Shown here: piece after piece, positions 21,425-46,656 of the stretch
Layout of the letters: every line of letters starts with the position of its first letter
Position numbering within the stretch: the stretch's first letter is position 1
Origin: Bacteroidales bacterium
GTDB taxonomy: Bacteria; Bacteroidota; Bacteroidia; Bacteroidales; UBA932
Length of the DNA: 58,005 bases
Direction: 5' to 3'
NCBI GenBank assembly: GCA_017459075.1
Contig: JAFUDQ010000015.1
Coordinates: 1-58,005, forward strand
Made by a program: the position numbers and the translations under genes
The notes under the pieces: generated by a model
Database searches by the model: none
Told to the model about the DNA's origin: nothing
What the model saw: the letters and a program-made list of their open reading frames with translations, nothing else

Positions 21425-21550
21425 ATATAGGGAGTGTTGTCTTTCAGGACTCTACTGTTTGTGCGTGAGCAACCGGGGCCCCTAAAAATTTCTATTTTTT
21501 GGGGTTTTCTACGGGGGTGGCACGACCTTGAAAGACAACACTCCCTATAT
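21425..21550. repeat. 22-bp perfect inverted repeat, 82-base spacer
   Basis: Bases 21425-21446 and 21529-21550 are exact reverse complements. The element starts six bases after the gcvPB stop. The spacer holds a GGGGCCCC palindrome and a T run followed by GGGG but no gene. It may be a terminator-like RNA structure, a small non-autonomous element or a short invertible segment. The rest of the 312-base gap to 21732 holds only this element, a dispersed repeat and no recognisable gene. Confidence 0.75.
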
Positions 21551-21731: not shown

Positions 21732-22637
21732 ATGTTTAAAAAATACATTTTACCAATTCTTGTAGCCTTAATGACTTACTCATGCGTGGATGATGTCGAT
21801 TTTTCTGAAGCGTTTGAGAAAGAGATTGTTGTAATGTGTACACTGAACAATGTGGATGATGTTCAACATTTGTACATGCATTACAACAAGTCTGTTGAGG
21901 CTGACGTTTACGAACCTTTGAAGGGAGAGGTAAAGGCTGTTGTGTATTTGGACAATGACAGAAGCAATGAGGTGATATTTGAACGTATCTCCGATTTAGA
22001 ATGGACCGCGAATTATCATATAGCTCCGGAAATCGAAGATGAAACATGGGAGTTCCCTTTTCTGTTCGGTACAAAAACTATAACTTTTAGACATATAAAT
22101 ATTCAAAAAAAGGATCTTTATTTAGAAATCTCCATTGATGGAAAAAAAGTAGCTCATTCACATACTACAATTGCTCCTACATTATTTAATTCTTCCGTAG
22201 AATATGGTTTTAATCAGGTACATTCGTCTGAGAATTATGTTTTCTGGTTTGTTAATTATGATGCAGGAGTCTTTTCCGAAAAAGTTACATTGACTGATAC
22301 ATTTCCGGAACCTATTGAGCCAGCAAAACAGGTCAGAAATGATGGCATTCAGAACCTTGATGGCTTTAGTTTGATTGGAACAAATGAGTATTATTTTGGC
22401 GCACGATTCGAAGGGAATGCAGGCGGCAGCGTACCTGAGAATCAGTTATTTATACCATCGACTGAGTATGACGAATACTTGAAATCTCTCATATACCGGG
22501 CAATACATATAGATCCTGATGATCCGGCAAAACAGATGAATGACTATAAAGTCAAATCAAACATCACCGGTGGTACAGGCGTGTTCGGTGTTTATTATTT
22601 GATATCGTCCCCTCCACCTAATCCATATGATGTATAG
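21732..22637 (+). CDS. DUF4249 lipoprotein
   Basis: This 301-residue protein begins MFKKYILPILVALMTYSC, a lipoprotein signal with the Cys at 18, and matches the DUF4249 layout: an early EIVVMCTLNN strand, central beta-rich region and a DDPAKQMNDYKVKSNITGGTGVFG segment split between residues about 265 and 290. DUF4249 proteins are paired with TonB-dependent receptors in Bacteroidota and are presumed surface partners for uptake. Its stop overlaps the receptor's first possible start codons. Base composition is visibly more AT-rich than the gcv genes upstream, hinting at a separate origin. Confidence 0.8.
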   Translation: MFKKYILPILVALMTYSCVDDVDFSEAFEKEIVVMCTLNNVDDVQHLYMHYNKSVEADVYEPLKGEVKAVVYLDNDRSNEVIFERISDLEWTANYHIAPEIEDETWEFPFLFGTKTITFRHINIQKKDLYLEISIDGKKVAHSHTTIAPTLFNSSVEYGFNQVHSSENYVFWFVNYDAGVFSEKVTLTDTFPEPIEPAKQVRNDGIQNLDGFSLIGTNEYYFGARFEGNAGGSVPENQLFIPSTEYDEYLKSLIYRAIHIDPDDPAKQMNDYKVKSNITGGTGVFGVYYLISSPPPNPYDV

Positions 22638-31652: not shown

Positions 31653-33110
31653 GTGAGGAACGTAGTAATAGTTTTATCTGCTATTCTTACGGGTGTCTTT
31701 ATGGTTTGCGGGAGCAGCGTTGCTGCGGCCCAATACTTGGACACCCGCAGTACTGCGTCTGATTCCCTGAAGTGGCAGCTCCCGAAAGATTCAAACAAAG
31801 TCAGGACTACAATCCACTTTAAGCCGGGAGAGGTCCTGGGCGGCAGCCACGGGAAGCTTTCCTTGCCGGATATCGCCCTTAACCAGAACATCCAGGGAGA
31901 GAAACGCATCTCTGTATCCGACTCCCTGCGTACGGGAGAGTTCACCATATTCTTCCGTCACAATCGCACAGACATCGACACAAATTATCTTTGGAATACG
32001 GCTCAGCTGGCACTTCTCCGTCATTTCCTCGGGGGAGACATCGCCAGGGATACAATAACTGTTTACGCATTCGCATCGCCTGAAGGCCATTACGGACACA
32101 ACGTATGGCTCTCAAAGAAGAGGGCGGAAACTGCACGTGACTACATCCTTACTCACTCTGAACTACAACCTGATCTTGTGCAGATCTGCTACTTGGAAGA
32201 GAACTGGCCGGCGCTTCGCCAGGCAGTCAGGAATTTCTATCACGGGGACAATCGGGAGGCCCTTCTGGTTGTCCTTGGCGATGCCGGTCTTGATGATGAG
32301 GTTCGCAAGAAAATTATCATCGACCTTGATGGTGGCAAAACGTATAAGTATCTGATTGATACGCTTATGCCTCCTATGCGAAGCGCTATTGTTTGCGCTG
32401 CTTCCAGGGTTGTGCCTGCTATTGAGGCCGATATCCCCGTCACTGCGCAGACGGAGCTGGAGTCTCCCGGCATCAGGGAACCCCGCCACGTTGCGTACGG
32501 AGAAGAGGATGGCCTGCGGAAGCGCACCATCGTCGCCCTTAAGACCAATATGCTTTACGACCTTGCCACGGTGCTTAATTATCAGATTGAGTTCCCGATT
32601 GGCAAGCAGTTCTCTGCGGTCTTTGAGGAGTATACGCCATGGTGGGTTATGCATAACAACCGTATTTGTATCCAGTATCTGACTTTGGGTGGTGAGGCAC
32701 GCTGGTGGTTTAAACCGGAGCCTCGTCCGGAGTCGGAAGACCTGATGCTCAGGGATGTGCTGGTGGGCCATTACATCGGCCTGTATGGTCTCTGGGGCAA
32801 GACAGACCTGCAATGGGACAAAAAGGGTACCTATCAGTGCAGGGGTATTGTCAGCGCCGGTGTTACCTATGGTTATGTGTTCCCAATCAGCAAGCACCTG
32901 AATCTGGAGCTGTCGGCCAGTGTGGGTTATGCCCGCATACCGTATCAGCATTACAATCCTTCAGAGGATTGGCAGATTCTGTGGCGCGACCGCTCAAAGG
33001 TGGGCGTCCGTCATTGGTTCGGACCTACCAAAATTACAGCTACCCTCAGCATACCTATCGTGGTGAGCCGCAGGGTGAAAAAACAGTCATGGAGGACGGA
33101 ATGGCAATGA
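31653..33110 (+). CDS. OmpA-like/DUF3575 fimbrial-locus outer-membrane protein (locus B)
   Basis: GTG 31653 starts a signal peptide (MRNVVIVLSAILTGVFMVCGSSVAAAQ). The 485-residue protein has an OmpA-like segment around YAFASPEGHYGHNVWLSKKR and a C-terminal DUF3575 barrel-like part with FSAVFEEYTPWWVMHNNR and WFGPTKITATLSIPI. Proteins of this type head fimbrillin operons in Bacteroidales; an assembly or anchoring role in the outer membrane is inferred. It is the intact counterpart of the frameshifted gene at 157-1402. Its TGA overlaps the next ATG as ATGA, so the operon is translationally coupled. Confidence 0.85.
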   Translation: MRNVVIVLSAILTGVFMVCGSSVAAAQYLDTRSTASDSLKWQLPKDSNKVRTTIHFKPGEVLGGSHGKLSLPDIALNQNIQGEKRISVSDSLRTGEFTIFFRHNRTDIDTNYLWNTAQLALLRHFLGGDIARDTITVYAFASPEGHYGHNVWLSKKRAETARDYILTHSELQPDLVQICYLEENWPALRQAVRNFYHGDNREALLVVLGDAGLDDEVRKKIIIDLDGGKTYKYLIDTLMPPMRSAIVCAASRVVPAIEADIPVTAQTELESPGIREPRHVAYGEEDGLRKRTIVALKTNMLYDLATVLNYQIEFPIGKQFSAVFEEYTPWWVMHNNRICIQYLTLGGEARWWFKPEPRPESEDLMLRDVLVGHYIGLYGLWGKTDLQWDKKGTYQCRGIVSAGVTYGYVFPISKHLNLELSASVGYARIPYQHYNPSEDWQILWRDRSKVGVRHWFGPTKITATLSIPIVVSRRVKKQSWRTEWQ

Positions 33111-34171
33111 AAAGGCGTGTAAATCATATACTTGCATTGCTTGCGGCGTTTATTATGGCGCTGCCTCTGACGGGCTGTCATTTCAGGAAGCTGCAAGACC
33201 CGTCCAACTCTACCTATGTGCGGGTTTATGTTGACGAAGTCATTAAAAACGTGAACACAGGCTTCTACAACCCTGATTTTGTGCATCCGGAGTACAAGCG
33301 GCCGGAGATTCTGCGAATTGGTCTTTTTGACCATTCCGACGGGCATCTTGTGAGCGACCGCTACCTTCGTGGCCAGGGCGATGACGAGCGCGGGCATTAT
33401 TATGACGGCTACATTACCGCCGCCCCCGGAACCTATGACTTCGTGGCTTACAACTTTGGTACGGAGGCGACCATCGTGGGTTCCGAGTACGATTTGTCAT
33501 CCATGACCGCCTACACCAATGAGATTTCACCGAGCCTTCGCAGCCGTTTTAAGGCCGATGGCAACGTGACTGTTCCTATCCGTTACGATGCCGACCATTT
33601 GTTTGTTGCGAATGGCGATGGTATCAAGGTCAAGACCCATATGGGGCCTGACACCCTGCGCAGCAATACCGGAGAGCCTTTCTTCAGGGCTTCCAGTGTT
33701 GTTCAGTCCTGGTATTTGCAGATTGGCGTTGTGGGCAGCCAGTGGGTTGCTTCCGCCGTCTGCGTGCTGGACGGAATGGCATCATCTGTCCGCCTTAAGG
33801 ACAGGGATTTTGCCAATTCCGACGAGACTGCCCTCTACATGGAACTTCTGTCGGGTACTTATCCGGATAACTTCTATCCGGGCCTTACGGATTTCCATTG
33901 CATTTACACCACATTCGGTACCTTTGGCAAACTGCCGAATGCTACCAATAACCTGGTGGTTACTTTTGAATTTATTACAACCTATGGTAAGCGTTTTGAG
34001 GTGCCGATTGACATCACCGAGGAGTTTTTCAAGCCCGATGCCACCAACCATCAATGGCTTATCATTTCAAAAATCATTGAGATTCCAGAGCCCGAAGGCG
34101 GCGGTGGAGGTGGCGGCATGAACCCCTCTGTGACCGACTGGGACGACGTAAAAGCAGATATTATTATTTGA
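33107..34171 (+). CDS. DUF5119-type fimbrial lipoprotein (FimB/Mfa2-like), locus B
   Basis: ATG 33107 overlaps the upstream stop (ATGA) and begins MKRRVNHILALLAAFIMALPLTGC, a lipoprotein signal with Cys at residue 24. The 354-residue protein has the DUF5119 beta-rich body and ends NPSVTDWDDVKADIII after a glycine run, matching the locus A paralogue's tail pattern. It is presumed to anchor or cap the fimbria made of the fimbrillin that starts 129 bases downstream. That 129-base leader to the next gene has no -7 box, so the fimbrillin depends on the operon promoter. Confidence 0.8.
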   Translation: MKRRVNHILALLAAFIMALPLTGCHFRKLQDPSNSTYVRVYVDEVIKNVNTGFYNPDFVHPEYKRPEILRIGLFDHSDGHLVSDRYLRGQGDDERGHYYDGYITAAPGTYDFVAYNFGTEATIVGSEYDLSSMTAYTNEISPSLRSRFKADGNVTVPIRYDADHLFVANGDGIKVKTHMGPDTLRSNTGEPFFRASSVVQSWYLQIGVVGSQWVASAVCVLDGMASSVRLKDRDFANSDETALYMELLSGTYPDNFYPGLTDFHCIYTTFGTFGKLPNATNNLVVTFEFITTYGKRFEVPIDITEEFFKPDATNHQWLIISKIIEIPEPEGGGGGGGMNPSVTDWDDVKADIII

Positions 34172-34299: not shown

Positions 34300-35442
34300 A
34301 TGAAAAAAGTCCTATTTTTTGCAGCCATTCTGGGCGGTGTCCTCGCTGGTTGCTCCAAGAATGAAATTGAAAGCAGCAACCCCCAGCTGATTGCTTTCAA
34401 TACCCCCGTCGTAGGCAATGCCACGAAGGCCGCGGTTGGTATTATTGAGAATAAAATTTACCCTGACGATCGTCCCTTCGATGTTTGGGCTTTGTATTCA
34501 GAAGCAGCAATTACAAACCTTAGTGGATATGATGCTGCAACAAAAACAAATTATTTCGAGAAAAAGACTTTCACCTACAACAATGGTGCTTATGCCTACA
34601 CAGCAAATGCTTATTGGCCTAAAAAACCCGGTGCAAAGCTTACATTCCATGCTTTATCTCCTGTGCTTACCGAGACTGTAGCGCATCAGTGGGTTGCCAC
34701 ATCGGCACCTAATAACTTTGTTGGATTCAAAGTAACAGGTTATTCTGTTGAAGATGACGCTGCATCACAGAGAGATTTGATGTACAGCGATATCGCTTTT
34801 GATAAAACATCATCAGATGAGGCCGTAGATGACGTCGCTCTTCATTCAGGAGATAGTTATACAGGTGTTGACATTACTTTCCGTCATGCATTAGCAAGCA
34901 TCCGTTTTAAAGTTAAGCTTGCAGCTGAAGATATTTCAACAACAAAATACCAGATAAAGAAGATTTATCTTTATGGTCATAAGAACAAGGGTGATTTCTT
35001 AGAGAATTTGAATACAAACGGAACCGCTTCCGAACCCTATCCTACATGGACAGCAACAGGATCTGAAATAATTGAATCTGCAAAGAAAGAAATCACTCTC
35101 CATCAGGCTCTGACAGATGTACCGGTAGATGGTACAGAATTGAATCTTTATACTGCTGGCACTGGTACATACATCGTTATGCCACAGGACCTGACTAGAG
35201 TAAATCTTTATGTTGAGTATACTGAGAAAGTCGGTGATTTAACAGCAACAGATCTTACTAAAACAATTCCTCTTACAAACCTTGGCGGAATAGAGACTGG
35301 CGACGCTGAAGCAACTAAAAACAATTGGATTCCTAACCGTCGTTACACATATACTCTCGTAATCAGTAGAGATCAGATCAAACTTGACCCCGCTGTTGCT
35401 AACTGGACTGATGTTGAGGTAACTTTACCTACGAATCTTTAA
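34300..35442 (+). CDS. Expressed fimbrillin of the invertible locus (variant 1)
   Basis: ATG 34300 begins MKKVLFFAAILGGVLAGC, a lipoprotein signal with Cys at residue 18, then SKNE and the ATKAA motif at 41-45. The 380-residue protein has the usual fimbrillin marks FDVWALY, TFHALSP, DLMYSDIAF, FRHALASIRFKVKL and the C-terminal RDQIKLDPAVANW. Codons 4-45 lie wholly in a 126-base repeat that recurs inverted in the opposite-strand fimbrillin at 35601-36671; beyond codon 45 the two differ at DNA level. It is the third gene of locus B and would form the pilus shaft at the cell surface after lipid-dependent export and proteolytic maturation. Confidence 0.9.
   Translation: MKKVLFFAAILGGVLAGCSKNEIESSNPQLIAFNTPVVGNATKAAVGIIENKIYPDDRPFDVWALYSEAAITNLSGYDAATKTNYFEKKTFTYNNGAYAYTANAYWPKKPGAKLTFHALSPVLTETVAHQWVATSAPNNFVGFKVTGYSVEDDAASQRDLMYSDIAFDKTSSDEAVDDVALHSGDSYTGVDITFRHALASIRFKVKLAAEDISTTKYQIKKIYLYGHKNKGDFLENLNTNGTASEPYPTWTATGSEIIESAKKEITLHQALTDVPVDGTELNLYTAGTGTYIVMPQDLTRVNLYVEYTEKVGDLTATDLTKTIPLTNLGGIETGDAEATKNNWIPNRRYTYTLVISRDQIKLDPAVANWTDVEVTLPTNL
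34309..34434 (+). repeat. 126-bp inverted repeat, left copy
   Basis: These 126 bases are identical to the reverse complement of 36546-36671. The match begins one codon after MKK and stops abruptly at both ends (A/C before, G/A after). It encodes the end of the signal peptide, the lipobox and ATKAA. Confidence 0.97.
34366..34401. other. 10-bp dyad inside the inverted repeat (candidate crossover site)
   Basis: ATTGAAAGCA (34366-34375) and TGCTTTCAAT (34392-34401) form perfect arms around 16 bases, within coding sequence. The same dyad is at 36579-36614 in the other copy. It could be a recombinase binding site; the spacing is not that of a classical hix site. Confidence 0.4.
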
Positions 35443-35490
35443 CATTTTCCAAGGCTTACTAAGAAATAGCTTTAGTAAGGATATCTAAGA

Positions 35491-35541
35491 AACGCGTTGA
35501 CACGTTCTGGCTTTGGGTGCCAGTTTTCGTGTCAACGCGTT
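35491..35541. terminator. Nested hairpin between convergent fimbrillins
   Basis: AACGCGTTGACACG (35491-35504) pairs perfectly with CGTGTCAACGCGTT (35528-35541). Inside the loop CTGGC and GCCAG form a second stem. It sits between the two fimbrillin 3' ends, so it could terminate transcription in either orientation of the cassette, although no long T tract follows. Confidence 0.6.
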
Positions 35542-35600
35542 AATAGTTAGGTGTTTATCGCCCTAAATAATTAGAGCTATTCCAGTTTAAACAGAATCAG

Positions 35601-36671
35601 TTAGATCTTTGGTCCATCAACATCTACATTATTCGTTTCCCATGTCTCGACAGCAGGGTCTAGTCTGATTTGATCACGACCAATGATAATTGTATAAGTA
35701 TATATCTTACCCGGATCCCAAGTCGTCACGCTGCTTAGGTTATGGAGTTTAACATTATCAGCTTGGACAGACTGCGCGGTTAACCCACCTATTTTTTCTG
35801 TATAGTCAATAGTGACACTTACATCAGTTGCGGGATCTCCATATTCAAGGTCCTGTGGAAGAACGATATAAACTCCTGTTGAGCCATCATAGAGAGCAAG
35901 TGGAGAAGCATTGACAGGAACATTAACACCCGTATTATGTAATTCTAGTGTAACTGACTGGTCTTTTGCTATAGGTGCAGTTTGTCCTGACCATTGAGGA
36001 GAAGCATATTCATTGAAAGCACCTACTGTTCTATGATTGAATAATTTAATACTAGTAATCTGGTAAACCGTACTAGAGACATCAGCTGCTTCAAGTTTAA
36101 CTTTGAAGCGAATAGCCGAAAGGGCATGCTTGAAAAGAATATCGTTTCCTTCGTAGTAGTGAAAAGGATCACTATCTGAAGCTTTATCCGTTTCATTGCT
36201 CTTGGTCTGATCATATGCGAAATCACTATACATTAAATCATCCTGATTAACGGTATAGTAAGGAATAGAGATACCAGCTGTTGATTTTACCCAACTATTT
36301 TCAGCATTTGTTACTCCTGCTGGAGAAAGCGCTTTGAATGTTAGATAGCCATTCTGCTTAGGCCAAAACGCACCAGAATTAACATAGGATGGATGTTCTG
36401 AATTTCCGTTATATGAAAATTCTATCTTTTTAAAATACTCATATTGATTAACGCCCGTTGCATCTAAATCACCGTTAAGTTTATTATCTGTGAATAGAGC
36501 CCAAACATCAAAAGGAATGCTAGTCGGATATTCATTAGTGACTATCGCGGCCTTCGTGGCATTGCCTACGACGGGGGTATTGAAAGCAATCAGCTGGGGG
36601 TTGCTGCTTTCAATTTCATTCTTGGAGCAACCAGCGAGGACACCGCCCAGAATGGCTGCAAAAAATAGGAC
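35601..36671 (-). CDS. Silent fimbrillin cassette (variant 2), lacking its own start
   Basis: From the repeat edge at 36671 the frame encodes VLFFAAILGGVLAGC and ATKAA identical to variant 1, then a different body of about 310 residues with FDVWALF, LTFKALSP, DLMYSDFAYD, FKHALSAIRFKVKL and a C-terminal RDQIRLDPAVETW. The frame extends upstream to an ATG at 36797, but those 42 residues are neither hydrophobic nor signal-like, no TAnnTTTG box faces this way between 36672 and 36950, and no operon partner precedes it. It is therefore read as a stored, unexpressed copy that inversion would bring behind MKK at 34300. A fortuitous translated gene cannot be excluded. Confidence 0.75.
   Translation of the reverse strand, partial: VLFFAAILGGVLAGCSKNEIESSNPQLIAFNTPVVGNATKAAIVTNEYPTSIPFDVWALFTDNKLNGDLDATGVNQYEYFKKIEFSYNGNSEHPSYVNSGAFWPKQNGYLTFKALSPAGVTNAENSWVKSTAGISIPYYTVNQDDLMYSDFAYDQTKSNETDKASDSDPFHYYEGNDILFKHALSAIRFKVKLEAADVSSTVYQITSIKLFNHRTVGAFNEYASPQWSGQTAPIAKDQSVTLELHNTGVNVPVNASPLALYDGSTGVYIVLPQDLEYGDPATDVSVTIDYTEKIGGLTAQSVQADNVKLHNLSSVTTWDPGKIYTYTIIIGRDQIRLDPAVETWETNNVDVDGPKI
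36546..36671 (-). repeat. 126-bp inverted repeat, right copy
   Basis: This is the exact reverse complement of 34309-34434. Read on the minus strand it supplies the lipobox and ATKAA of the silent fimbrillin. Confidence 0.97.
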
Positions 36672-36895
36672 GATTTCGGTGGAACAATCCCATAATAAAC
36701 AGATATCCACGGTAATCCTGTTCTCGAACCCTATGTGTTTTTGCGGTTGTAACTGGTGTCTCTTTTGCCGTTTCATAAGATTCGTAAAAATCTTCATAAG
36801 AATCGTAAAAACTTTTTCCAGTTGAAAAATATGAATTAGAAATGCTGGAGTAGCTTTTATAATCAGAAAATTTTTGGTGAATCAGAAATAATCCA

Positions 36896-36903
36896 TAAAT
36901 TTG
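36896..36903 (+). promoter_or_regulatory. Rightward -7-like box
   Basis: TAAATTTG is a perfect TAnnTTTG match, with TTTTTGG about 20 bases upstream. It points away from the silent fimbrillin, towards a terminator hairpin 52 bases later and the small gene at 37077. It may be a remnant promoter or drive a short RNA. Confidence 0.4.
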
Positions 36904-36954
36904 CACCATATATGAATGAATACAGCCCTTGTGGCTATATGAAAACTACAAATT

Positions 36955-36990
36955 AAAAAAGCATTTCAGCCCAAACTGGAATGCTTTTTT
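36955..36990. terminator. Intrinsic terminator hairpin
   Basis: Arms 36955-36969 and 36976-36990 pair over 15 bases with one G-U-type mismatch, A6 on the left and T6 on the right, giving a terminator for either direction. Confidence 0.7.
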
Positions 36991-37076
36991 AATAGTGCAA
37001 ATAGAAGATAGGGGTTGAAGGAGTACTGCAGCACCCTCCCGCAGATCTTTTACAAGTTTTCATAATATATTCATTC

Positions 37077-37223
37077 ATGAAAAAGATCACGCGTTTGACG
37101 GTGAGCTTTAAACTAGAGTTCGAGGCTCCCAAACTTGTCAGAGTGAAGGCGTATAAACGCATTCAACATGGCAAGGTAGTGAAGGTCCGCTCATACTATC
37201 GCCGCATTTGGGAGCGGCAATAG
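37077..37223 (+). CDS. Small basic 48-residue protein
   Basis: ATG 37077 to TAG 37223 encodes a 48-residue, lysine- and arginine-rich protein (MKKITRLTVSFKLEFEAPKL ... YYRRIWERQ) with beta-like alternating residues. No family is recognised. It lies between a terminator and a PD-(D/E)XK transposase fragment, in a remnant-rich region. The good codon regularity and clean start make it a plausible real small gene, but function cannot be assigned. Confidence 0.4.
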   Translation: MKKITRLTVSFKLEFEAPKLVRVKAYKRIQHGKVVKVRSYYRRIWERQ

Positions 37224-37311
37224 TTGCTGAACGGTTCTTCATGTAATAACTTCTTATTCGACCGGAGACCCCGGGGAGAGTTTCGACTCTCCCTTTTTTA
37301 TATACCATCGA

Positions 37312-37644
37312 ATGGAACATATGAAGAATCGGCCGCCACAACTAAAGGAAGAAATCTTCAAACTCTTGTTTGAATCGGCGGAAATTGCTAATTTTACGCC
37401 GGAAGAAAAAGCAAAGTACGAAAGGGACATGACAACGGAACGAGATATACGTAATTACATCTCCTGCGCCAGACAGGAAGGGCGTGAAGAAGGACTTGAG
37501 GCTGGGAAAAAGGAAGGTATCAAAGAAGGTGTAATTAACACAAAGATTGAAATTGCAAAGGCATTGTTTGCAAAAGGCATCGGCTTGGAAACTATCGCCA
37601 GCTGCACTGGGCTTTCTATTGATGAAATAGAAAAGTTGAAGTAG
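37312..37644 (+). pseudogene. C-terminal fragment of a PD-(D/E)XK (Rpn/PDDEXK_2) transposase
   Basis: The 110-residue frame has the characteristic C-terminal part of these proteins: RDMTTERDIRNYI, the charged helix with EGREEGLEAGKKEGIKEG, and a final IEIAKALFAKG ... LSIDEIEKLK. Full proteins are about 300 residues and hold the nuclease core upstream, which is missing here. It is read as a mobile-element remnant between the inversion locus and its possible recombinase. Confidence 0.75.
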
Positions 37645-37683
37645 TAAAGTACTTAGTGAATCAAACGCTAGAAAATATTTGCC

Positions 37684-38285
37684 ATGAAGATTTTCCTGTT
37701 CGCGTATTTTATTATCTCGTTGTCCTTTTATGCCAGTATCAGCATGCCAGGAACTGTTTTTCAGCCCCATGTGCCGAATGACGAAAGTTTGGAGAACGGC
37801 CATGAGTGGGTGGATCTTGGTTTGTCTGTGAAATGGGCGACATGTAACGTGGGTGCAGTGCTCCCTGGTGATTACAGCGATTATTTCGCTTGGGGAGAAA
37901 CTAGTAAGAAGAGCGAGTATTCATGGGAGACATACAGATGGACTGATAAAGAGTTTTATGAGCTGATTAAGTATTGTCCGTCCGATAAATATGATTATTG
38001 GGTCGATTCAGGTAATCCCGATAATATAACTCAGTTGGATATGTCTGACGATGCTGCCCGTCAGAACTGGGGCGGTAGTTGGCATATACCTACAGAAAAA
38101 GAATGGACGGAACTTTGCGAAAAATGTGATTGGACGTGGTCTGCCCAGGATGGTCATGAGGGCTACAGAGTGTCCAGCAAGAAGACAGCCCTGACTATGG
38201 ATGGAATGTTGAATTCTATTTAGAAGGGATTAATGTCTCTCTCAGTTGCCGATTCAATGGTCTATCTGTTCGTCCCGTAATCTGA
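37684..38285 (+). pseudogene. FISUMP-domain secreted protein, internally deleted and frameshifted
   Basis: A hydrophobic N-terminus (MKIFLFAYFIISLSFYASIS) precedes a FISUMP-type domain: EWVDLGLSVKWATCNVGA, YFAWGET, WHIPTEKEWTEL, EGYRVSSKK. The in-frame reading stops at 38221-38223. In the +1 frame the expected C-terminus follows, DYGWNVEFYLEGINVSLSC, then FNGLSVRPVI to TGA 38283-38285. The segment usually found between (FLPAAGY ... WSSS) is missing, so a deletion of roughly 30 codons with a frame change has occurred. The last two proteins of the fimbrial array carry related C-terminal domains, so this may derive from a tip protein. Confidence 0.7.
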
Positions 38286-38470
38286 TTCTTTGGAGAGAAC
38301 TTAGCGCTTAACGTTTAGTTAAAAGCGGTGAAGGTGGAAATCGTGGCAGACCTTCCCCGCAAAATGCTGTCTGGTTTGCTATAGTGGTGAAGGTCTGGGT
38401 ACTTTGAGTCCACATTCCCCTCTGTGCATATTATATCAGAAAGGAAAAAGCGGAAAACCCTGGGTCTTCA

Positions 38471-38546
38471 GGTGCAGGAAGGGCGGTTTTGCACCGCGAG
38501 AAGGGAAAAAAGTTGGTGCGGGGTGCAGGAAGGGCGGTTTTGCACC
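38471..38546. repeat. 25-bp direct repeat with dyad ends upstream of the recombinase
   Basis: Bases 38471-38495 and 38522-38546 are identical 25-mers whose ends are mutually inverted (GGTGCA ... TGCACC). They are 51 bases apart, about five helical turns, and lie 43-118 bases before the recombinase -7 box. They could be an operator pair or recombination subsites. Confidence 0.75.
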
Positions 38547-38588
38547 TGGCTGGCAAGGGGGACTGAGGGGCTTAAGGGGAAAAGTCTG

Positions 38589-38596
38589 TAATTTTG
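38589..38596 (+). promoter_or_regulatory. -7 box of the recombinase gene
   Basis: TAATTTTG matches TAnnTTTG and ends only seven bases before the ATG at 38604, so the transcript would be leaderless or nearly so. No -33 TTTG was seen. Confidence 0.45.
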
Positions 38597-38603
38597 CGGA
38601 AAA

Positions 38604-39206
38604 ATGAATTACGGGTATATCAGGGTGAGTTCTGACAAACAGACTGTGGAGAATCAGCGGTTTGAGATTAACAATTTTTGCGCCCGGGAGGGGATGAAGA
38701 TTGACGGGTGGATTGAGGAAACTATCAGTGGTACAAAGGAGTATCGGAAAAGGGCTTTGGGTAGGTTGCTGCGCCGGGTCCGTAAGGATGACCTGATTAT
38801 TTGCGCGGAACTGTCGCGGCTTGGACGAAGCCTTTTCATGATTATGGAAATCCTGAATCTGTGCATGGGAAGGGAATGCCGGGTGTGGACTATCAAGGAC
38901 GGCTTCCGTCTTGGCGATGATATCCAGTGCAAGGTCCTGGCTTTTGCCTTTGGGCTGTCGGCGGAAATTGAACGCAATCTCATCAGCCAGAGAACCAGGG
39001 AGGCTCTTGCGAGGAAAAAGGCTGAGGGCGTGCGTCTGGGCCGCCCCAAGGGGACAAGGAACTCGCAGGCGAAATACAAACTTTCGGGACGGGAGGCCCT
39101 GATAAAGCGGCTGATGGCCCAGGGGTGTTCCCAGCGTTCTATCGCGCGGCGCCTTAATGTTGATCGTGGTACCCTTGCGCGCCACCTTTCCAGGATTCAT
39201 GGCTAA
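38604..39206 (+). CDS. Serine recombinase of the Mpi-type DNA invertase family
   Basis: This 200-residue protein opens MNYGYIRVSSDKQTVENQRF with the nucleophile S9 in the YIRVS motif, has the resolvase/invertase core (ISGTKEYRKR, LIICAELSRLGRS, FGLSAEIERNLISQRTREAL) and a C-terminal helix-turn-helix (QRSIARRLNVDRGTLARHL). Length and N-terminus fit the Bacteroides 'master DNA invertase' Mpi family, known to flip surface-polysaccharide promoters in B. fragilis. It lies 1.9 kb from the right fimbrillin repeat and immediately before the nine-gene fimbrillin array. Its real targets are not shown by the sequence. Confidence 0.9.
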   Translation: MNYGYIRVSSDKQTVENQRFEINNFCAREGMKIDGWIEETISGTKEYRKRALGRLLRRVRKDDLIICAELSRLGRSLFMIMEILNLCMGRECRVWTIKDGFRLGDDIQCKVLAFAFGLSAEIERNLISQRTREALARKKAEGVRLGRPKGTRNSQAKYKLSGREALIKRLMAQGCSQRSIARRLNVDRGTLARHLSRIHG

Positions 39207-39291
39207 CCGGACGCAGGACTATCAAAAAATCCTTTTTGAGTACTTAATTTGGTGTTTTTTGCGCGAAAAAGGTCAATGATTTTCGCTGTTT

Positions 39292-39323
39292 TTTGGTTTA
39301 ATTGCAAAGATTGAGTACCTTTG
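39292..39323 (+). promoter_or_regulatory. Promoter of the nine-gene fimbrillin array
   Basis: TTTG (39292-39295) is followed after 20 bases by TACCTTTG (39316-39323), a complete Bacteroidota promoter. The ATG at 39424 leaves a leader of about 93 bases. No other clear promoter was seen until 53573. Confidence 0.65.
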
Positions 39324-39423
39324 CTAAATTATAATATAATTATAATTTGTTGCAAAAAAACGAAAGACTTTGGGTGCTGCTAAAAATATAAGATGTGCTA
39401 AGAACACAAGACGTTATTAACGC

Positions 39424-40338
39424 ATGATATTTAGGTTTGGACATATAGGGGTTTTGGTGGCTGCGATATTGCTATCCGCTTGTTCCAAGGATGACAGGTC
39501 CCAGGACAATACGCGGGTGGAATTGCAGTTCGTCCCCATTATGCAAAACCTTGTGAAATCCGCACCGCAATCCGAGTCCCAATCCGAGCCCACTTTCCCC
39601 CGAGATATCGTCCTTGGAGTACATGCGTGGGAATACGAACCATCCACGTCGGCAGAGAACGGAGCACCGCTACTTAGCAACGCCACAGTGGCATTCACAG
39701 AAGGGGAGTGGCAGCTGTCAAACGAAGCCTGGTGGCCCTCGGACGGCAAACTGCTGGCAGTAGTGGCCTATGCTCCATACACAGCAACATCGGCTTATGT
39801 AAAAGGCAAGGGCATCTGCTGGGAAGGGGTAGACCTTGGCAACGAAGACACGCCGGACCTCCTGTACAGTGAGCTGCACAGCGGCCTTCGCAGCGGCATC
39901 GGCACAGTAAACCTGCCAATGAAGCACTCACTCTCAAGCATAGACTTTGCCCTTAAGCATAATGCGGCGGAAGGGGAGAGCGTGGCAATAACATCCCTCA
40001 GGGTAGAAGGCCTTCGCTGGAAGGGAAGCTTCCAGTCCCAGCCTCAGCCTACATGGTCGGCAGAAGGGGATCCGCAGGGCAAAACCTTCTTCAGCGGCAG
40101 CAGAGTCCTGAATTACGAGTCCGCCGTTGTGGGAAGCACCCTGCCTGTTATACCGCAAAGCCTGGCCGGCGGCAGCGTAACCATCGGCATAACAAGTACA
40201 AGGGAAGGCTTTGCCGACAGTTATGAACTTACCGGCAAGTTGCCAAGCACGTACCTTGAGAGCGGACGGCATTACACGCTCACCATTGCCATTAATGCCG
40301 ATAAACTTGATTTTGTAATTGATATTGTTAGAAATTGA
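39424..40338 (+). CDS. Fimbrillin-family lipoprotein 1 of the array
   Basis: This 304-residue protein begins MIFRFGHIGVLVAAILLSAC with the lipid Cys at 20, then SKDD. Fimbrillin marks are WWPSDGKLLAVVAYAPYT, LLYSEL and MKHSLSSIDFALK, and a C-terminal ESGRHYTLTIAINADKL strand. It is shorter than the others and lacks a TKA motif near the start. It leads the array, with a stop overlapping the next gene's likely TTG start. Confidence 0.8.
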   Translation: MIFRFGHIGVLVAAILLSACSKDDRSQDNTRVELQFVPIMQNLVKSAPQSESQSEPTFPRDIVLGVHAWEYEPSTSAENGAPLLSNATVAFTEGEWQLSNEAWWPSDGKLLAVVAYAPYTATSAYVKGKGICWEGVDLGNEDTPDLLYSELHSGLRSGIGTVNLPMKHSLSSIDFALKHNAAEGESVAITSLRVEGLRWKGSFQSQPQPTWSAEGDPQGKTFFSGSRVLNYESAVVGSTLPVIPQSLAGGSVTIGITSTREGFADSYELTGKLPSTYLESGRHYTLTIAINADKLDFVIDIVRN

Positions 40339-42011
40339 TTAGCAGGCCTTCATATGGTGTTTTGACCGGAGCTGTCCTTAAGATGGTGTCCGCAGTGGCG
40401 ATGCTTGCCGGCCTCCTGGCTTCCTGCACCAAGGACTCTGCCAGCAACGAGGCTCCGCTTGAAGTGGGCTTTGCGAATCCGGTAGTTGAGACTGGCCGCA
40501 CCAAGGCTCTCTCAGACGCTGCAACCAAGGCCCTCTCAGACGCCGCAACCAAGGCTGTTGCCGGGGAAATTCCGGCCACTTACTCCATAAAGGAAGACTT
40601 CAGGGTATGGAGCTGGTATTCCACTAATACACTTTCCCGTCTGGACGCCACTACAAATGGCTCTACTGCCAACGGAACATATTTTTTTGAGAATATCAAA
40701 GCCTTCCATACAGGCTCCAGCCTTGACTTTACAGAATATTGGAGGCTGACTCCTGCGTACTACTGGCCAAAGGCCGGATACCTTAGTTTCCATGCGGTTT
40801 CCCCTGCGGATTTTGCTTCCTATTGCAACCCTGCTTCAGGAGACAAATTTGAGCATAACTGGGGCTCTTCCGCTGCCCCCGGACTTAAGCTCTACGGCTA
40901 CACTGTAGAGGATGATCCCACAAAGCAGATAGACCTGATGTACAGCGACTTTGTCTTTAACAAGCGCCGCAGCGACTATAACGACAACAATCCGTACGAC
41001 GATAAGGAGGGTGACGATAAGGAGGGTGACGATAATACGAAGTACGTTTACAACGGCGTAAATGTGCTGTTTCATCACGCCCAGAGCTCTGTTCACTTTA
41101 AGGTTGGCCTTGACCGCGATTATGAAATTGTAGGTGGCAGGATTCGTCTTTTCCTTAAGAAACTGGAGGTGCTTTACCCTTACAAGAAGGCCGATTTCTC
41201 TGAGAACAGAAAGCCTGACAACTTGAAAAATGAATATGCCTCCGGCAGCGGCCCCGTCTGGTCCAACCAGCAAACGGAAAAAGACTCATACGTGCTTTAC
41301 AACAAGGGCAGCATCACCGGCGGTACCCTTAATGCATTCAATGATATCGCCATGAAGACCAATGGCACATGGCATGTCGCCCATAACATCAATATCGAAA
41401 AAGGTGTTGAGATTGTATTCCGCCGTGGCGGAAGCTGGGAAGACGTCCTTGGGCATATCAAGGGCCAGGCCCCGCCGTACGTCCGTGGACAGGAATTTAC
41501 TGTTACCGATGCCGGAGGAACTGAAATAAACATCCTGGACAGCGGAACCTACGACATCCTCCTGAACCCGGGTGAAAAGAAGGCCCGAATCATTGAAGCC
41601 CAGCCGGAATCGGCATACGCCGCCTTTACTTATGACAGCGAATGGGGCATCCATTACACCCTCGGCTTCAAACCTACCACAACGGCCTACGACCTTGTAG
41701 ACGGAGACACTTACGGCAACAAGTACATCGGCGGAACATCGCTTCTTATGATACCGCAAGACCTTGATCATACCGCCGCCTCAGGGCACAAGGTTCAGGC
41801 CAGGATTACCTATAGCGTGAAGGTTGGAAATGTAGAGGTAGAGACCACTGTGACAAAGGACCTTCCCGGCCTGCTGGACTCCGGAAGCACTGCCATAAAT
41901 TCATGGCTTCCGGGGCGTAAATACGTGTATACCATAACTTTAGGTATGGATAAGATAATTGTAGACCCTTACGTAACGGCGTGGGTGAACGTAGATGACA
42001 TCGGCAAATGA
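40335..42011 (+). CDS. Fimbrillin-family lipoprotein 2 of the array
   Basis: This 558-residue protein is the longest simple fimbrillin here. The first in-frame start is TTG 40335, which overlaps the previous stop; ATG 40383 is the alternative and gives a shorter leader without positive charge. The lipobox is LLASC, followed by two copies of TKALSDAA and a third TKA, encoded by 24-base tandem repeats at 40500-40547. Fimbrillin marks include YYWPKAGYLSFHAVSP, DLMYSDFVFNK and VLFHHAQSSVHFKVGL. A second tandem (DDKEG twice, 40998-41027) lies in a surface loop. C-terminal GRKYVYTITLGMDKI closes the family fold. Confidence 0.85.
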   Translation: MISRPSYGVLTGAVLKMVSAVAMLAGLLASCTKDSASNEAPLEVGFANPVVETGRTKALSDAATKALSDAATKAVAGEIPATYSIKEDFRVWSWYSTNTLSRLDATTNGSTANGTYFFENIKAFHTGSSLDFTEYWRLTPAYYWPKAGYLSFHAVSPADFASYCNPASGDKFEHNWGSSAAPGLKLYGYTVEDDPTKQIDLMYSDFVFNKRRSDYNDNNPYDDKEGDDKEGDDNTKYVYNGVNVLFHHAQSSVHFKVGLDRDYEIVGGRIRLFLKKLEVLYPYKKADFSENRKPDNLKNEYASGSGPVWSNQQTEKDSYVLYNKGSITGGTLNAFNDIAMKTNGTWHVAHNINIEKGVEIVFRRGGSWEDVLGHIKGQAPPYVRGQEFTVTDAGGTEINILDSGTYDILLNPGEKKARIIEAQPESAYAAFTYDSEWGIHYTLGFKPTTTAYDLVDGDTYGNKYIGGTSLLMIPQDLDHTAASGHKVQARITYSVKVGNVEVETTVTKDLPGLLDSGSTAINSWLPGRKYVYTITLGMDKIIVDPYVTAWVNVDDIGK

Positions 42012-43132
42012 GAAAGTTCCTTTCATATCTTATGCTGATGGCAGTTGTTGCCGCCTCCTGTTCCAAGAATGAGGTGACGACGCCGGACCGCCGTGTGCCG
42101 GTATTTTTCAATCCCCCGGTGATAGGCCAGGCGACGAAGGGGTATATAGAATCTACTGAATATCCTACCACCGCTGAATTCCATATCTGGGGCTATTTTA
42201 CCGATGCGGCCGATGTCAATCCGGCCTCGGCAGGTGACCATGGCCAGGAATACTTGGCAGGGGAGAGATGCACTTATATGCAGATAGACGGAGCCGGTCC
42301 TAAATACTGGCTGCCCCATTACACTTACGATACTGACAAGACAGGTTATTATTACTGGAAATCAGGTATTGGCTATATCACCTTCCAGGCCCTCTCTCCT
42401 TACGGTCTCTCCGGTGTGAGCCATGACTGGGTAACTGGGCTCGCAATTGATGATTTTACTATTGACGAAACCGTTGCTTCGCAAAAGGATATTCTTTACA
42501 CCAACTATACGAGCCCTCAGCGAAATCCGTACGATGAAACCGCAGGAGATTTGGGCCCGGATAAAGGAGTCGATATTTGTTTCAAACATGCTCTTTCCGC
42601 CGTCAGGTTCCAATTCAGGGAACTGAAGGATTATGCCACGGAAGAAAGCAGTACTATCAAAATCAAAAAGATAGAACTTCTGAACGCATATTCAAATGCC
42701 GATTTCGCTGAAAACAGGGCAACATCGGCATTGAATACGTATTCATCCTCTCCGGCCTGGACGAACATTAATTCAGAGCATGACTATGTCATTTACGAAA
42801 ATGCAACAGGAGTCACTCTTACATGGGTGGCCGGTGAAGCTGTTATCACTGATGTCCTGGGCAATGTGTTCATGTCTATTCCCCAGAATCTGGATCACAG
42901 CTCAGAGGGTTTGCGACAGGTTAGCGTTCGCATAACCTATACCATAAATGACGGGGAGAATAACACTGTGGCTGCATCTCTGGCCGGGCTTAAGGCCGGG
43001 ATCACTCCGATTGACTCATGGGAAATGGGGAAACGGTATACTTACGTAATAACCGTAGGCTTGAATAAGATATTGTTCGACCCTGTGATTACTGACTGGC
43101 TGACGACGGCAGATAACTACATAATGTTCTGA
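42008..43132 (+). CDS. Fimbrillin-family lipoprotein 3 of the array
   Basis: ATG 42008 overlaps the preceding TGA as ATGA. The 374-residue protein has the signal MRKFLSYLMLMAVVAASC, then SKNE and QATKGY. Fimbrillin marks are FHIWGYF, YITFQALSPYG, KDILYTNYT, ICFKHALSAVRFQF and MGKRYTYVITVGLNKILFD. It is likely a shaft or accessory subunit. It is chained by a one-base overlap to the next gene, so these proteins are probably made in fixed ratio. Confidence 0.85.
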   Translation: MRKFLSYLMLMAVVAASCSKNEVTTPDRRVPVFFNPPVIGQATKGYIESTEYPTTAEFHIWGYFTDAADVNPASAGDHGQEYLAGERCTYMQIDGAGPKYWLPHYTYDTDKTGYYYWKSGIGYITFQALSPYGLSGVSHDWVTGLAIDDFTIDETVASQKDILYTNYTSPQRNPYDETAGDLGPDKGVDICFKHALSAVRFQFRELKDYATEESSTIKIKKIELLNAYSNADFAENRATSALNTYSSSPAWTNINSEHDYVIYENATGVTLTWVAGEAVITDVLGNVFMSIPQNLDHSSEGLRQVSVRITYTINDGENNTVAASLAGLKAGITPIDSWEMGKRYTYVITVGLNKILFDPVITDWLTTADNYIMF

Positions 43133-44283
43133 TGATGAAAGAGAGAATCTGTCATATCGTTTTGTTGCTTGCTGCCGTGCTTCTGACGGTGGCTTGTGGG
43201 AAAGATGCGCCTGAACGTAAAAAGGGAGACCAAATCTCTTTCAGCAAGCCATCCATTCAAACCAAGATGCTTGTAAACCAGGCTGTTTCCGGAACATCCT
43301 ATCCTTTCGCAGAGAATTTCACTGTTTATACGGGAAAATCAGCCTCTGAGTGGGCTGTAGACGGCATCGTTCCCGGAGATATGGACTATCTGATGAATGG
43401 AATTGACTGTGGATACGCCGGTTCCGGTGCCTCATGGGACCCCGCATCCGGCGCAAGTGGTACAGCATATTACTGGAGTGAACTTGGTGATAAGAATAAA
43501 CTCACTGCGCAGGCCTATTCACCTACCGGAGCGGAAGCGTCAGAGCATTATTTCAGTGGCGGAGGCCTTGCACATTCATGGACAAATGGCTTTACTTTGA
43601 CAAACTTCCAGTCACCGGAAATCGGCAGTCAGTTTGACCTGATGTTCTCTCCAAGGTCTTATAATTATGAGTCGTCCACCAAAGGCGGCCATGTAGACCT
43701 TACTTTCAGTCATGCCCTTTCACAGGTTTTATTCATGGTTGCCCTTCACGGCGATTTTGATACTCATACCAAGGTATATATCAAGGGATTGACTGTAAAG
43801 AATCTTTTCTGGAAGGGTACTTACGAGCAGGGCCTTAAAACTGCCCGCGAGGCTGTGGATGCCACTCCGTACAATACCGGATTTCCCAAATGGACTCATT
43901 CGGATACAGAGAAGGATTTTGCTGTTTACAGCAGCGTGACCGGTGTACAGCTTGAAAAATCCGTAGACCATGTTGGCACCAGCGGATGGTTCCTCCCAGA
44001 AAATGTGTTTTTGCCCTTGCCGCAGAACCTTACCCATGACAGGGTTGACCCTGCAGAAGATACTGAGGTAACACTTGGAATTGACTATGCCTTCGCTGCC
44101 GAGGACGGTACCATCATTGATGAGCACAGGGAGTTCCTCCTTAAGGACGTGACTGATAATCCCGTCTGGGAAATGGGTAAAAAATATGTGTATCGAATTT
44201 ACATCCAGCCTAACAGTGTATTGGTTTCAGTGAAGATTATAGGCTGGGATGCTGTTACAACTATTGATATTCCAGGTTCATGA
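43132..44283 (+). CDS. Fimbrillin-family lipoprotein 4 of the array
   Basis: This 383-residue protein starts with MMKERICHIVLLLAAVLLTVAC, Cys at about 22, and ISFSKPSIQTKM near the mature end. Marks are LTAQAYSPTGA, DLMFSPRSY, LTFSHALSQVLFMVAL, FLPLPQNLTHD and MGKKYVYRIYI. Its aromatic, calcium-free beta-sandwich style matches fimbrillins, with no additional domain. Start and stop codons overlap those of both neighbours. Confidence 0.8.
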   Translation: MMKERICHIVLLLAAVLLTVACGKDAPERKKGDQISFSKPSIQTKMLVNQAVSGTSYPFAENFTVYTGKSASEWAVDGIVPGDMDYLMNGIDCGYAGSGASWDPASGASGTAYYWSELGDKNKLTAQAYSPTGAEASEHYFSGGGLAHSWTNGFTLTNFQSPEIGSQFDLMFSPRSYNYESSTKGGHVDLTFSHALSQVLFMVALHGDFDTHTKVYIKGLTVKNLFWKGTYEQGLKTAREAVDATPYNTGFPKWTHSDTEKDFAVYSSVTGVQLEKSVDHVGTSGWFLPENVFLPLPQNLTHDRVDPAEDTEVTLGIDYAFAAEDGTIIDEHREFLLKDVTDNPVWEMGKKYVYRIYIQPNSVLVSVKIIGWDAVTTIDIPGS

Positions 44284-45536
44284 GAATTGTAAGACACATA
44301 TATGCATTTGTAGCAGCTATACTGCTCCTGACAGCCCTTTCTTGCAGTAAAGAAGGTGGCCGGGAACCTTCGCTGCCAAAAATGTCAGGTGATGAAGTCG
44401 TTTTTTATGTTGGTTCAGCAAACAGCCCTCAGAGCAAGGCTGCTGCCCGGCTTACAAGCGGCGACTCCCTTATGACATACGGCGGCGGTTTTGCCATTTA
44501 CGGAGCATATCACACGGCACCATCGTTCCCCGGAACGACGGAGAATAAGCCGCAATCGCTGTTTTACAATATCCCTGTAGAAAGGGACGATGAAGTTATT
44601 CCTCCGAGCGATGCCAGCGTTGACGCCCACCCTTGGCATACTGTCCCGACAATTTACTGGCCTTATGTGGGCAAGGTGTCTTTCTTTGCCTATGCACCTT
44701 ATAATGCCGACAGGGATTCCCTTGTGGTGACCACCCGTTATGACACAGCGGAATATCCCCAGCTGACATTTACTCCTAACCCTAAGGCGACAAAGCAAGT
44801 TGACTTGTTGACGGGAATTGCCCTGAACAAGACAGGTGCAGAAGGTGAGGCTGTTTACCGTGTAGGGAAAGGATATGTAGATATGGACCTTTACCACCAG
44901 CTTACATGGATAGACTTCAGGGCAAAGGCAAGTTACGAGGGTACGACCGAGCAGTTTAACTCCTGGCTAAATTCAAATTTCGGAAGTGGTACTTGCGTGG
45001 GCGTTTCAAGCATTACACTAACCGGTATACTTTCAAGTAATACAGGTACTTACGCAGACCCTTCAAGCGTAACAAGGGGTTTTACCTGGGAAAATCCGTC
45101 ATATGATGCTTCTAAATATAACGGCGAATACATACTCAGCGTTGAAGGCGGTGAACTTAAAAGCCCAAGTCATGCTCCGCTTGCATCAACGGAAAGTTTT
45201 AATGAAGGCTATACCGTTATCGTTGAAGGTGACGGGGATGGAAACAATACTGAAAACGGGCTTTTATACCTTCTCCCACAGACCTTGCCTTCTACAGCCC
45301 GCCTGAAGGTAGAGTACGGTATTTTTAAAACAGATTCAGGTGACCCTCTTATGCTGTATTCCGCGTCATTTAATATCGGAGACCTGCCTGACGGTAAGAA
45401 TATCTGGGGCCCGGGAAAGCATATAAGGTATCAGCTGACTCTTCCGCTTACGGAAATCAGCAAAGCTACCATTACCGCAAATGTAACTGATTGGGAAATC
45501 GGACACAATTATGACCATGGTACATATCTGGAATAG
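44280..45536 (+). CDS. Fimbrillin-family lipoprotein 5 of the array
   Basis: This 418-residue protein begins MRIVRHIYAFVAAILLLTALSC with Cys at 22 and SKEGG. Family marks are YGGGFAIYGAYH, IYWPYVGKVSFFAYAPYN, KQVDLLTGIALN, MDLYHQLTWIDFRAKA, LYLLPQTLPS and GPGKHIRYQLTLPL. It overlaps gene 4 by four bases and gene 6 by about 20. Confidence 0.8.
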   Translation: MRIVRHIYAFVAAILLLTALSCSKEGGREPSLPKMSGDEVVFYVGSANSPQSKAAARLTSGDSLMTYGGGFAIYGAYHTAPSFPGTTENKPQSLFYNIPVERDDEVIPPSDASVDAHPWHTVPTIYWPYVGKVSFFAYAPYNADRDSLVVTTRYDTAEYPQLTFTPNPKATKQVDLLTGIALNKTGAEGEAVYRVGKGYVDMDLYHQLTWIDFRAKASYEGTTEQFNSWLNSNFGSGTCVGVSSITLTGILSSNTGTYADPSSVTRGFTWENPSYDASKYNGEYILSVEGGELKSPSHAPLASTESFNEGYTVIVEGDGDGNNTENGLLYLLPQTLPSTARLKVEYGIFKTDSGDPLMLYSASFNIGDLPDGKNIWGPGKHIRYQLTLPLTEISKATITANVTDWEIGHNYDHGTYLE

Positions 45537-46656
45537 AAATATTTGGCATATCGCCTTGTCTGTTATCTTTGTCGCATCCTGCAGCAAGGCAGGTGAGCCT
45601 GTTGTCCCGTCGGAAGATGTGCAGTCAATGGTTTCAGTTTCTGCGGGAGGACCGGAAGACGGACCGGAAGTGAAGGCTCCGGTAATCGGAACAAAACCAT
45701 CTTCTTTTGGCATGATGCTGGTTGAAGCCGGTACGTATAACTCTTATCAGGATTTCACTTCCAATGTGGCCGTGACTGCCCGCGACAACGATATTGACAT
45801 TAACAATACTTTATGGAACTTCTGTTATACTGGTTCACGTACATGGTTTAAGGAATTTTTCTTTATTAACAAGAAGGACGGAAGCAATAACGATGTAAAC
45901 GTTGATGTATATGCTTATGCGCCCTTTAATGGCAATCTTACCCCTGCACTGTTGACAGCAATCCCGTATACATTTGACTCTCAGGATGATATAATGTGGG
46001 CAGACCAGAATCAGGCAGGCTTTACTTTCCCTGGTGACGGCTTGTCCGCAGCGGGTTATAAGAACCGTGATATCCATGTAAATGGCGAACATAAGTACGT
46101 GCAGTTTGATTTTAATCATATCCTCTCCCTTATCGCGCTCCAGTTCAAATTAAAGAATACAGAGCATCCTTATGACGATAATTCCGGAAGCAATGCTACA
46201 ACGTATCTTCTTACAGGAGTAAGATTTACGGCAAAGAACGGGACTGTTGTTAAAACCGGTACCATGAATGCCCTTACCGGGGCTTTTACAAAAGGAGAGG
46301 TTAATTCAGGTACATTCGTAAAAGAATGGAGGGGAAGGGAGAGCAATCCGCTATTGACTATTTCTTCAGGCACAGAATATTCCAGCCCGTTCTATATACT
46401 AGTTTGTCCGGATTCTTATATAGATCCAAGTCATCATTATACTGACGGAGATTTTACGATAGAGCTTGAACTCTATACACAGGAAAAAGGTTATCTGCCA
46501 TATTCGACAGTGACAATCAATGCCGCCGATTTGGGGGGCAACGGCCTGGAGAAAAACAAGAAGTACACTTTCAGTTTCACTTTTGACAATCATATCCATT
46601 TTGACGGTGCAAAAACCGAGGACTGGACAGATGAATATTTGGAGTATGGTATTTAA
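45511..46656 (+). CDS. Fimbrillin-family lipoprotein 6 of the array
   Basis: ATG 45511 (or 45517 two codons later) begins MTMVHIWNRNIWHIALSVIF, lipobox VASC at about residues 21-24. The 381-residue protein has VYAYAPFNGNLTP, DDIMWADQNQ, VQFDFNHILSLIALQFKL and KNKKYTFSFTFDNHI. It is more diverged from classical fimbrillins than its neighbours and begins with FGMMLVEAGTYN rather than a typical IWxY strand. Overlaps exist on both sides. Confidence 0.75.
   Translation: MTMVHIWNRNIWHIALSVIFVASCSKAGEPVVPSEDVQSMVSVSAGGPEDGPEVKAPVIGTKPSSFGMMLVEAGTYNSYQDFTSNVAVTARDNDIDINNTLWNFCYTGSRTWFKEFFFINKKDGSNNDVNVDVYAYAPFNGNLTPALLTAIPYTFDSQDDIMWADQNQAGFTFPGDGLSAAGYKNRDIHVNGEHKYVQFDFNHILSLIALQFKLKNTEHPYDDNSGSNATTYLLTGVRFTAKNGTVVKTGTMNALTGAFTKGEVNSGTFVKEWRGRESNPLLTISSGTEYSSPFYILVCPDSYIDPSHHYTDGDFTIELELYTQEKGYLPYSTVTINAADLGGNGLEKNKKYTFSFTFDNHIHFDGAKTEDWTDEYLEYGI

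Follow-up and report, generated by a model that had tools for sequence, protein, structure and literature searches.

Gut and oral Bacteroidota carry adhesive fibres known as type V pili. The pilin of Moraxella is a type IV pilin, and the inversion of Moraxella bovis flips about 2 kb and leaves the N-terminal part of the pilin constant, with an invertase (Piv) that is not a serine recombinase. This pilin-gene inversion is on record (Marrs 1988, as listed in PMC11868660; this and the following papers are cited from their accessible parts). In Bacteroides fragilis, SusC/SusD shufflons are rearranged by Tsr0667 (PMC4747536; PMC5729914), and inversions in SusC and restriction genes are known in Bacteroides (PMC12632263; PMC4747536; PMC5729914). 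Within-gene inversions and surface-protein inversions are both named in PMC12632263, where variation of tip pilins by diversity-generating retroelements is also reported. Moreover, fimbrillin genes are enriched near some groups of invertons (PMC11892184).

Here we describe a fimbrillin locus in a 58,005-nucleotide stretch of DNA from a Bacteroidales bacterium, which as a whole is called the window below. The original prediction, made from the sequence of the window, knew of no fimbrillin system of this form. No report of an inversion exchanging a type V fimbrillin body was found in the open-licence literature searched. Pilin-gene inversion as such is known in Moraxella bovis (accessible part of PMC11868660). 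Because the Moraxella pilin inversion and the Bacteroides SusC and restriction inversions are on record, the novelty is narrowed to the type V fimbrillin.

Anatomy of the pilin locus

The pilus operon and the repeat-bounded segment within it consist of the following features.

31653..33110, plus strand: OmpA-type gene (OmpA is our own label) with DUF3575, first of the pilus operon (PF12099, 95.9 bits)
33107..34171, plus strand: DUF5119 gene directly upstream of the pilin (PF17145, 37.7 bits, cut-off 27)
34300..34308, plus strand: fixed start ATG AAA AAA (MKK), outside the putatively invertible segment
34309..34434, plus strand: left 126-bp inverted repeat, codons 4-45, with signal peptide, Cys18 lipobox and pro-region with Lys43
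34435..35442, plus strand: body 1, the pilin that the assembly shows in reading position; 39% identical to body 2, best solved match 4qb7
35479..35556, no strand assigned: strong hairpin between the convergent bodies, possible two-way terminator (-40.4 kcal/mol)
35601..36545, minus strand: body 2, headless alternative pilin without internal stop (Mfa_like_1, 60.3 bits, cut-off 27)
36546..36671, minus strand: right copy of the 126-bp inverted repeat, matching the left one in every base
39424..46656, plus strand: five further fimbrillin-like lipoprotein genes (39424, 40335, 42008, 43132, 44280) and a sixth at 45511, with PF13149 in all six

The two repeat copies are letter-for-letter identical and the sequence flanking them differs at both ends, as had been noted. 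Each copy lies towards the 5' end of the coding sequence of a fimbrillin gene, and the bodies of the two genes differ; the left gene (34300-35442) codes for 380 aa. In ten order-2 Markov versions of the window, the longest exact inverted repeats were only 15-22 nt. The 126-nt repeat occurs in its own genome (2.32 Mb in 53 contigs) in two copies, both at the 34309-36671 locus, and not in the three or more repeats and bodies that make up a shufflon. A 148-nt repeat query against 400 genomes of the genus, including its own, matched six of them, and the five other matches covered just 29-43 nt at 81-90% identity, so that an orthologous switch was not found among the 400 by way of the repeat. Elsewhere in the window, a perfect 22-bp inverted repeat (21425-21446 and 21529-21550, 82 bp apart) precedes the gene at 21732 and is possibly an invertible promoter or a transposon-like piece.

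The two copies are read in the same frame and share one operon start, which is the layout of an intragenic inversion switch. When the segment was inverted in silico, MKK was fused in frame to the second body, as predicted, giving 359 codons with no internal stops against 380 in the present state. The original prediction also gave a start to the left gene alone. Only the left copy lies behind the start of the pilus operon, but the right frame remains open for 42 codons past the repeat and reaches an ATG at 36797. Thus the right body is not strictly startless, although a start at this ATG would place 42 residues ahead of the repeat-encoded signal peptide, leaving it far from the N-terminus.

The repeats have a GC content of 54.0%, the two bodies one of 39.8% and 38.2%. 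The bodies have 140 residues in common, of which 77 differ in codon, whereas none of the 126 bases of the repeats differ. This contrast indicates either that recombination keeps the arms the same or that one arm is a recent copy.

The whole arrangement could in principle be an artefact of assembly or binning, which we regard as very improbable. The genome is in 53 contigs with an estimated contamination of 8.16%, and a second contig copies 6,958 bp of the window exactly. However, two distinct bodies with a common 5' segment must both exist, and misassembly could mix up only their orientation, that is, present the other state; moreover, the duplicate contig covers 39581-46538 and not the repeats. 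That separate 6,958-bp contig, an exact copy of 39581-46538, reflects either redundancy of the assembly or a mixture of strains.

Two pilin bodies and their maturation

Body 2 has a frame of 314 codons without a stop, and Pfam gave no match to body 1 at E 0.001. We built AlphaFold models of genes 1 and 2 on the eight fimbrillins of the window and compared them with solved structures. Model confidence was moderate, with a mean pLDDT of 70.4 for gene 1 and 61.1 for gene 2. The best solved matches of both models were fimbrial proteins of Bacteroidota, with 4qb7 first (E 2.3e-11 for gene 1 and 1.1e-10 for gene 2; TM-scores of 0.50-0.60, on moderate models), and a profile search against the sequences of solved structures gave no match at E ≤ 0.01. 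As modelled, both bodies fit the type V pilin fold. The hairpin between them (35479..35556) has a z of -6.93, and none of 200 shuffles was as stable.

Trimming of several fimbrial proteins of P. gingivalis takes place behind an arginine at positions 43-54, for which lysine can stand in in mutants (accessible part of PMC4789730). Judged from sequence, Cys18 and Lys43 in the repeat-encoded part are placed as expected for a lipoprotein signal and a basic cut. The Lys43 column is invariant among five pilins of the locus, not among all eight. In the model of gene 1, residues 1-9 and 11-51 are below pLDDT 50 and the folded part begins after them. Taken with the published trimming, the position of the repeat suggests that its product is probably the portion removed, and that the two bodies are two mature pilins. 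An inversion would thus probably exchange the whole mature pilin, judging from this position.

An Mpi-family invertase beside the segment

A gene that was absent from the earlier sequence-only reading lies downstream of the right repeat.

38604..39206, plus strand: Mpi-family serine DNA invertase, likely switch enzyme (NF009949, 317.8 bits, cut-off 272)

The match to NF009949 (master invertase Mpi) spans residues 1-197, the Resolvase domain scores 115.5 bits and residues 3-192 of the protein can be aligned to a solved DNA invertase. Its RVSS segment is aligned to RVST of the solved enzyme, and the serine of this segment is presumably the catalytic one. The gene starts 1,932 bp past the right repeat, outside the segment, with its 5' side facing the repeat. 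Just upstream of it, GGTGCAGGAAGGGCGGTTTTGCACC occurs twice (38471-38495 and 38522-38546), 51 bp apart. The same genome has a second Mpi, 77% identical to the first, with a methyltransferase-type match 15 bp after it. In a tree of Mpi proteins (114 rows, bootstrap not settled) the Mpi of the window has no supported place; it is outside a supported 14-row set that contains four Mpi genes near pilus operons, and the rows closest to it along the tree are linked to methyltransferases or cut off.

We consider it likely that the locus is a two-state pilin switch, in which the Mpi of 38604-39206 flips 34309-36671 between the 126-bp repeats and exchanges the pilin body. The serine invertase would recombine both inverted repeats and the 2.36-kb segment would turn round, leaving the upstream region, the ATG and the MKK codons in the pilus operon. 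The repeat would give the signal peptide, lipobox and pro-region in either state. The body behind it, equivalent to the mature type V pilin, would be exchanged, and the other body would wait on the opposite strand without an operon start. The hairpin between the bodies may stop transcription from both sides.

Mpi-linked switches in other genomes

With the Mpi model, 207 of the 400 genus genomes matched at E ≤ 0.001 and 52 were above the cut-off. We took 59 Mpi regions, comprising 57 above the cut-off (all those listed outside the own genome) and two below it; one more region, taken on other grounds, is not counted among them. In 11 of the 59 (L040, L049-L054, L059, L060, L063 and L064), exact inverted repeats of at least 18 nt connect a methyltransferase gene with a headless body convergent to it. 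The full genes sampled carry an Eco57I methylase domain and TaqI-like specificity domains, and the short bodies sampled carry a specificity domain; the methyltransferase and outer-membrane labels were confirmed on 10 sampled genes. In six other regions (L042, L066, L078, L081, L083 and L084), such repeats join two SusC-type outer-membrane genes, which are divergent with Mpi in between, so that this layout is unlike that of the window. In most of the methyltransferase loci no more than about 40 bp separate the 3' end of Mpi from the silent body; in L059 and L064 the two are more than 1 kb apart.

In a named collection, 429 relatives were confirmed and the best 80 of the 429 were analysed. A methyltransferase match lies within 3 kb of Mpi in 51 of these best 80 and a SusC-type match in four; in 14 the sequence stops within 300 bp past Mpi with no such match up to there, and 11 have none. 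At least 22 of the best 80 Mpi are identical to one in the genus set, and thus the two sets overlap.

Opposite orientations of one comparable segment are seen between two other genomes. L059 (6113-8334) and L064 (5765-7986), which come from these genomes, carry a 2,222-bp methyltransferase segment in opposite orientations at 100% identity, and their flanks are colinear with 95-97% identity. Between L060 (35-1828) and L063 (10316-12109), the end pieces of a methyltransferase switch are inverted relative to the flanks and the middle piece is not, a pattern that suggests exchange between two or more pairs of repeats. We infer that the adjoining Mpi made the changes in both pairs.

Many contigs (L043, L044, L055, L067 and similar) stop within about 100 bp of the 3' end of Mpi. 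Such stops at the edge of a likely switch site are as expected if inversion breaks the assembly. In L135, Mpi lies between two divergent small-protein genes (9104-9592 and 10794-11243) whose starts carry a 22-bp exact inverted repeat, a possible further kind of target of an Mpi-type switch.

The edges of the methyltransferase switches were compared with the repeat of the window, which points to the following site.

34309..34326, plus strand: candidate crossover site at the outer repeat edge, with a mirror copy at 36654-36671 on the minus strand (suggestive only)

Against a matrix of methyltransferase-switch edges of four classes, this edge ranked 18 of 115,976 positions (p = 1.6e-4). The alignment of the edges was anchored by hand and uses, by inspection, a reading frame other than that of the main methyltransferase classes. 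When classes were held out, p ranged from values at which no position scored better up to 0.036, and the motif was weak in two held-out classes (p 0.006-0.036). The resemblance is therefore suggestive only. A 36-nt dyad inside the repeat, seen by eye, was also considered as the crossover and set aside as a less favoured candidate; the outer edge was preferred to it by analogy alone.

The segment might instead invert by general homologous recombination at the 126-bp repeats, with Mpi serving another site or being a relic, an explanation that we find unlikely. Perfect identity over 126 bp would permit such recombination in principle, Mpi is 1.9 kb off and reversed relative to the methyltransferase loci, and the crossover is only a candidate. 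On the other hand, the linking repeats in related methyltransferase loci are as short as 19-32 nt, which indicates that long homology is not needed by design there, and the resemblance of the repeat edge, suggestive as it is, also argues for the invertase.

Related pilus loci

Apart from the own genome, 34 genomes of the genus had fimbrillin matches, and we took 20 pilus loci from these. The matched pilin genes are co-directional in all 20. In 18 they follow OmpA-type and DUF5119 genes of like direction, which are absent from the compared stretch in the other two. No Mpi match at E ≤ 1e-3 was found in any of the 20 stretches, and exact inverted repeats with copies at least 100 nt apart did not reach 20 nt in any of them, the longest being 19 nt. 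The first pilin of the window is followed by the next after 3,981 bp (35443-39423), an interval that contains body 2, a truncated Rpn-type piece, an ORF without assignment and the invertase. We read it as an inserted switch module.

The original prediction had proposed that related genomes be compared for the opposite arrangement, and none of this locus came to light by the repeat or by fimbrillin profiles. Neither that arrangement nor an orthologous switch was found with the fimbrillin profile at E ≤ 1e-20 in the 400 genus genomes, of which 35 (own included) had matches; no genome had more than four candidates scored, and a convergent pair was listed only for the window. A further set of 388 relatives, overlapping the genus set, gave matches at E ≤ 1e-30 in seven (own included) and no opposite arrangement. 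In a scan of named genomes, which possibly did not include the own genome, the fimbrillin profile confirmed none of 143 pattern matches. Among 141 Mpi loci scanned (L010, L040-L099 and L103-L182), four have fimbrillin frames at E ≤ 1e-5. In these four no swapped body was seen, and the exact inverted repeats observed were scattered and no longer than 13-15 nt; no second fimbrillin switch was found among the 141.

Mpi-family genes do adjoin type V pilus operons in L079 (4129-4713), L085 (9808-10392), L087 (9786-10370) and L090 (9795-10373), from four genomes of the genus, and these Mpi are 62-65% identical to that of the window. The position of the invertase in L079, L085 and L087, immediately upstream of an OmpA-DUF5119-pilin operon, suggests ON/OFF control; in L090 it lies beyond the end of the operon.

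These comparisons bear on the possibility that nothing switches at all, and that body 2 is a frozen, never expressed by-product of duplication or gene capture. The single known orientation, the lack of any relative with the arrangement and the gene pieces between body 2 and the Mpi gene are all consistent with this. We nevertheless think it quite unlikely, since body 2 is stop-free over 314 codons and clearly a fimbrillin, identical repeats stand beside saturated bodies, and the gene for an invertase lies near. A capture of very recent date would likewise account for the intact body 2 and the identical repeats.

Discussion

The two-state switch that was originally predicted gains from the anatomy, the nearby Mpi, the like layouts elsewhere, the opposite states of L059 and L064, and the identical repeats. 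A constant lipobox and maturation region with a body that is exchanged fits the coordinates as well as the trimming reported in the accessible part of PMC4789730, as far as sequence can tell. What counts against the switch is that a single orientation is known, and that the orientation and distance of Mpi are unlike those of most methyltransferase loci. Further points against it are the lack of a second fimbrillin switch among the Mpi loci scanned, the weakness of the edge motif, the unsupported place of this Mpi in the tree, the estimated contamination of the assembly and the moderate confidence of the models. As for its origin, we lean towards the view that an invertase with its nearest relatives mostly beside restriction-methyltransferase switches was recruited to a type V pilus operon, where it would swap the whole mature pilin with the crossover and all shared sequence in the cut-away pro-region, leaving no trace in the fibre. 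This gut bacterium can probably swap its surface fibre by inverting about 2.4 kb. With a whole pilin exchanged by inversion within the coding sequence, a single clone would be able to alternate between two types of fibre and so vary its surface, and one invertase design would serve unrelated defence and surface genes.

The locus shares with Moraxella bovis that an inversion would exchange two pilin genes. Unlike the type IV pilin and Piv of Moraxella, however, the window combines a type V fimbrillin with an Mpi-family serine invertase, and so is not of the Moraxella type. With the SusC/SusD shufflons of Tsr0667, also from Bacteroidales, it has in common that alternative surface-protein genes are, or here would be, brought behind one expression site; those shufflons involve several gene pairs with repeats around the start codon, whereas the window has two bodies and a repeat across the pro-region. 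The invertons of PMC11892184 likewise tie DNA inversion to type V pilus genes, but there nearby genes are regulated, and the accessible part of that paper describes no exchange of pilin bodies. The Mpi-methyltransferase switches of the genus and other Bacteroidales (L040-L064 and L104-L178) also have a full gene and a convergent headless body, an inverted repeat inside the coding sequence and a related invertase near. In those switches the target is the specificity part and the 3' end of Mpi mostly abuts the silent body, whereas in the window the target would be a pilin, and the invertase is farther away and turned round.
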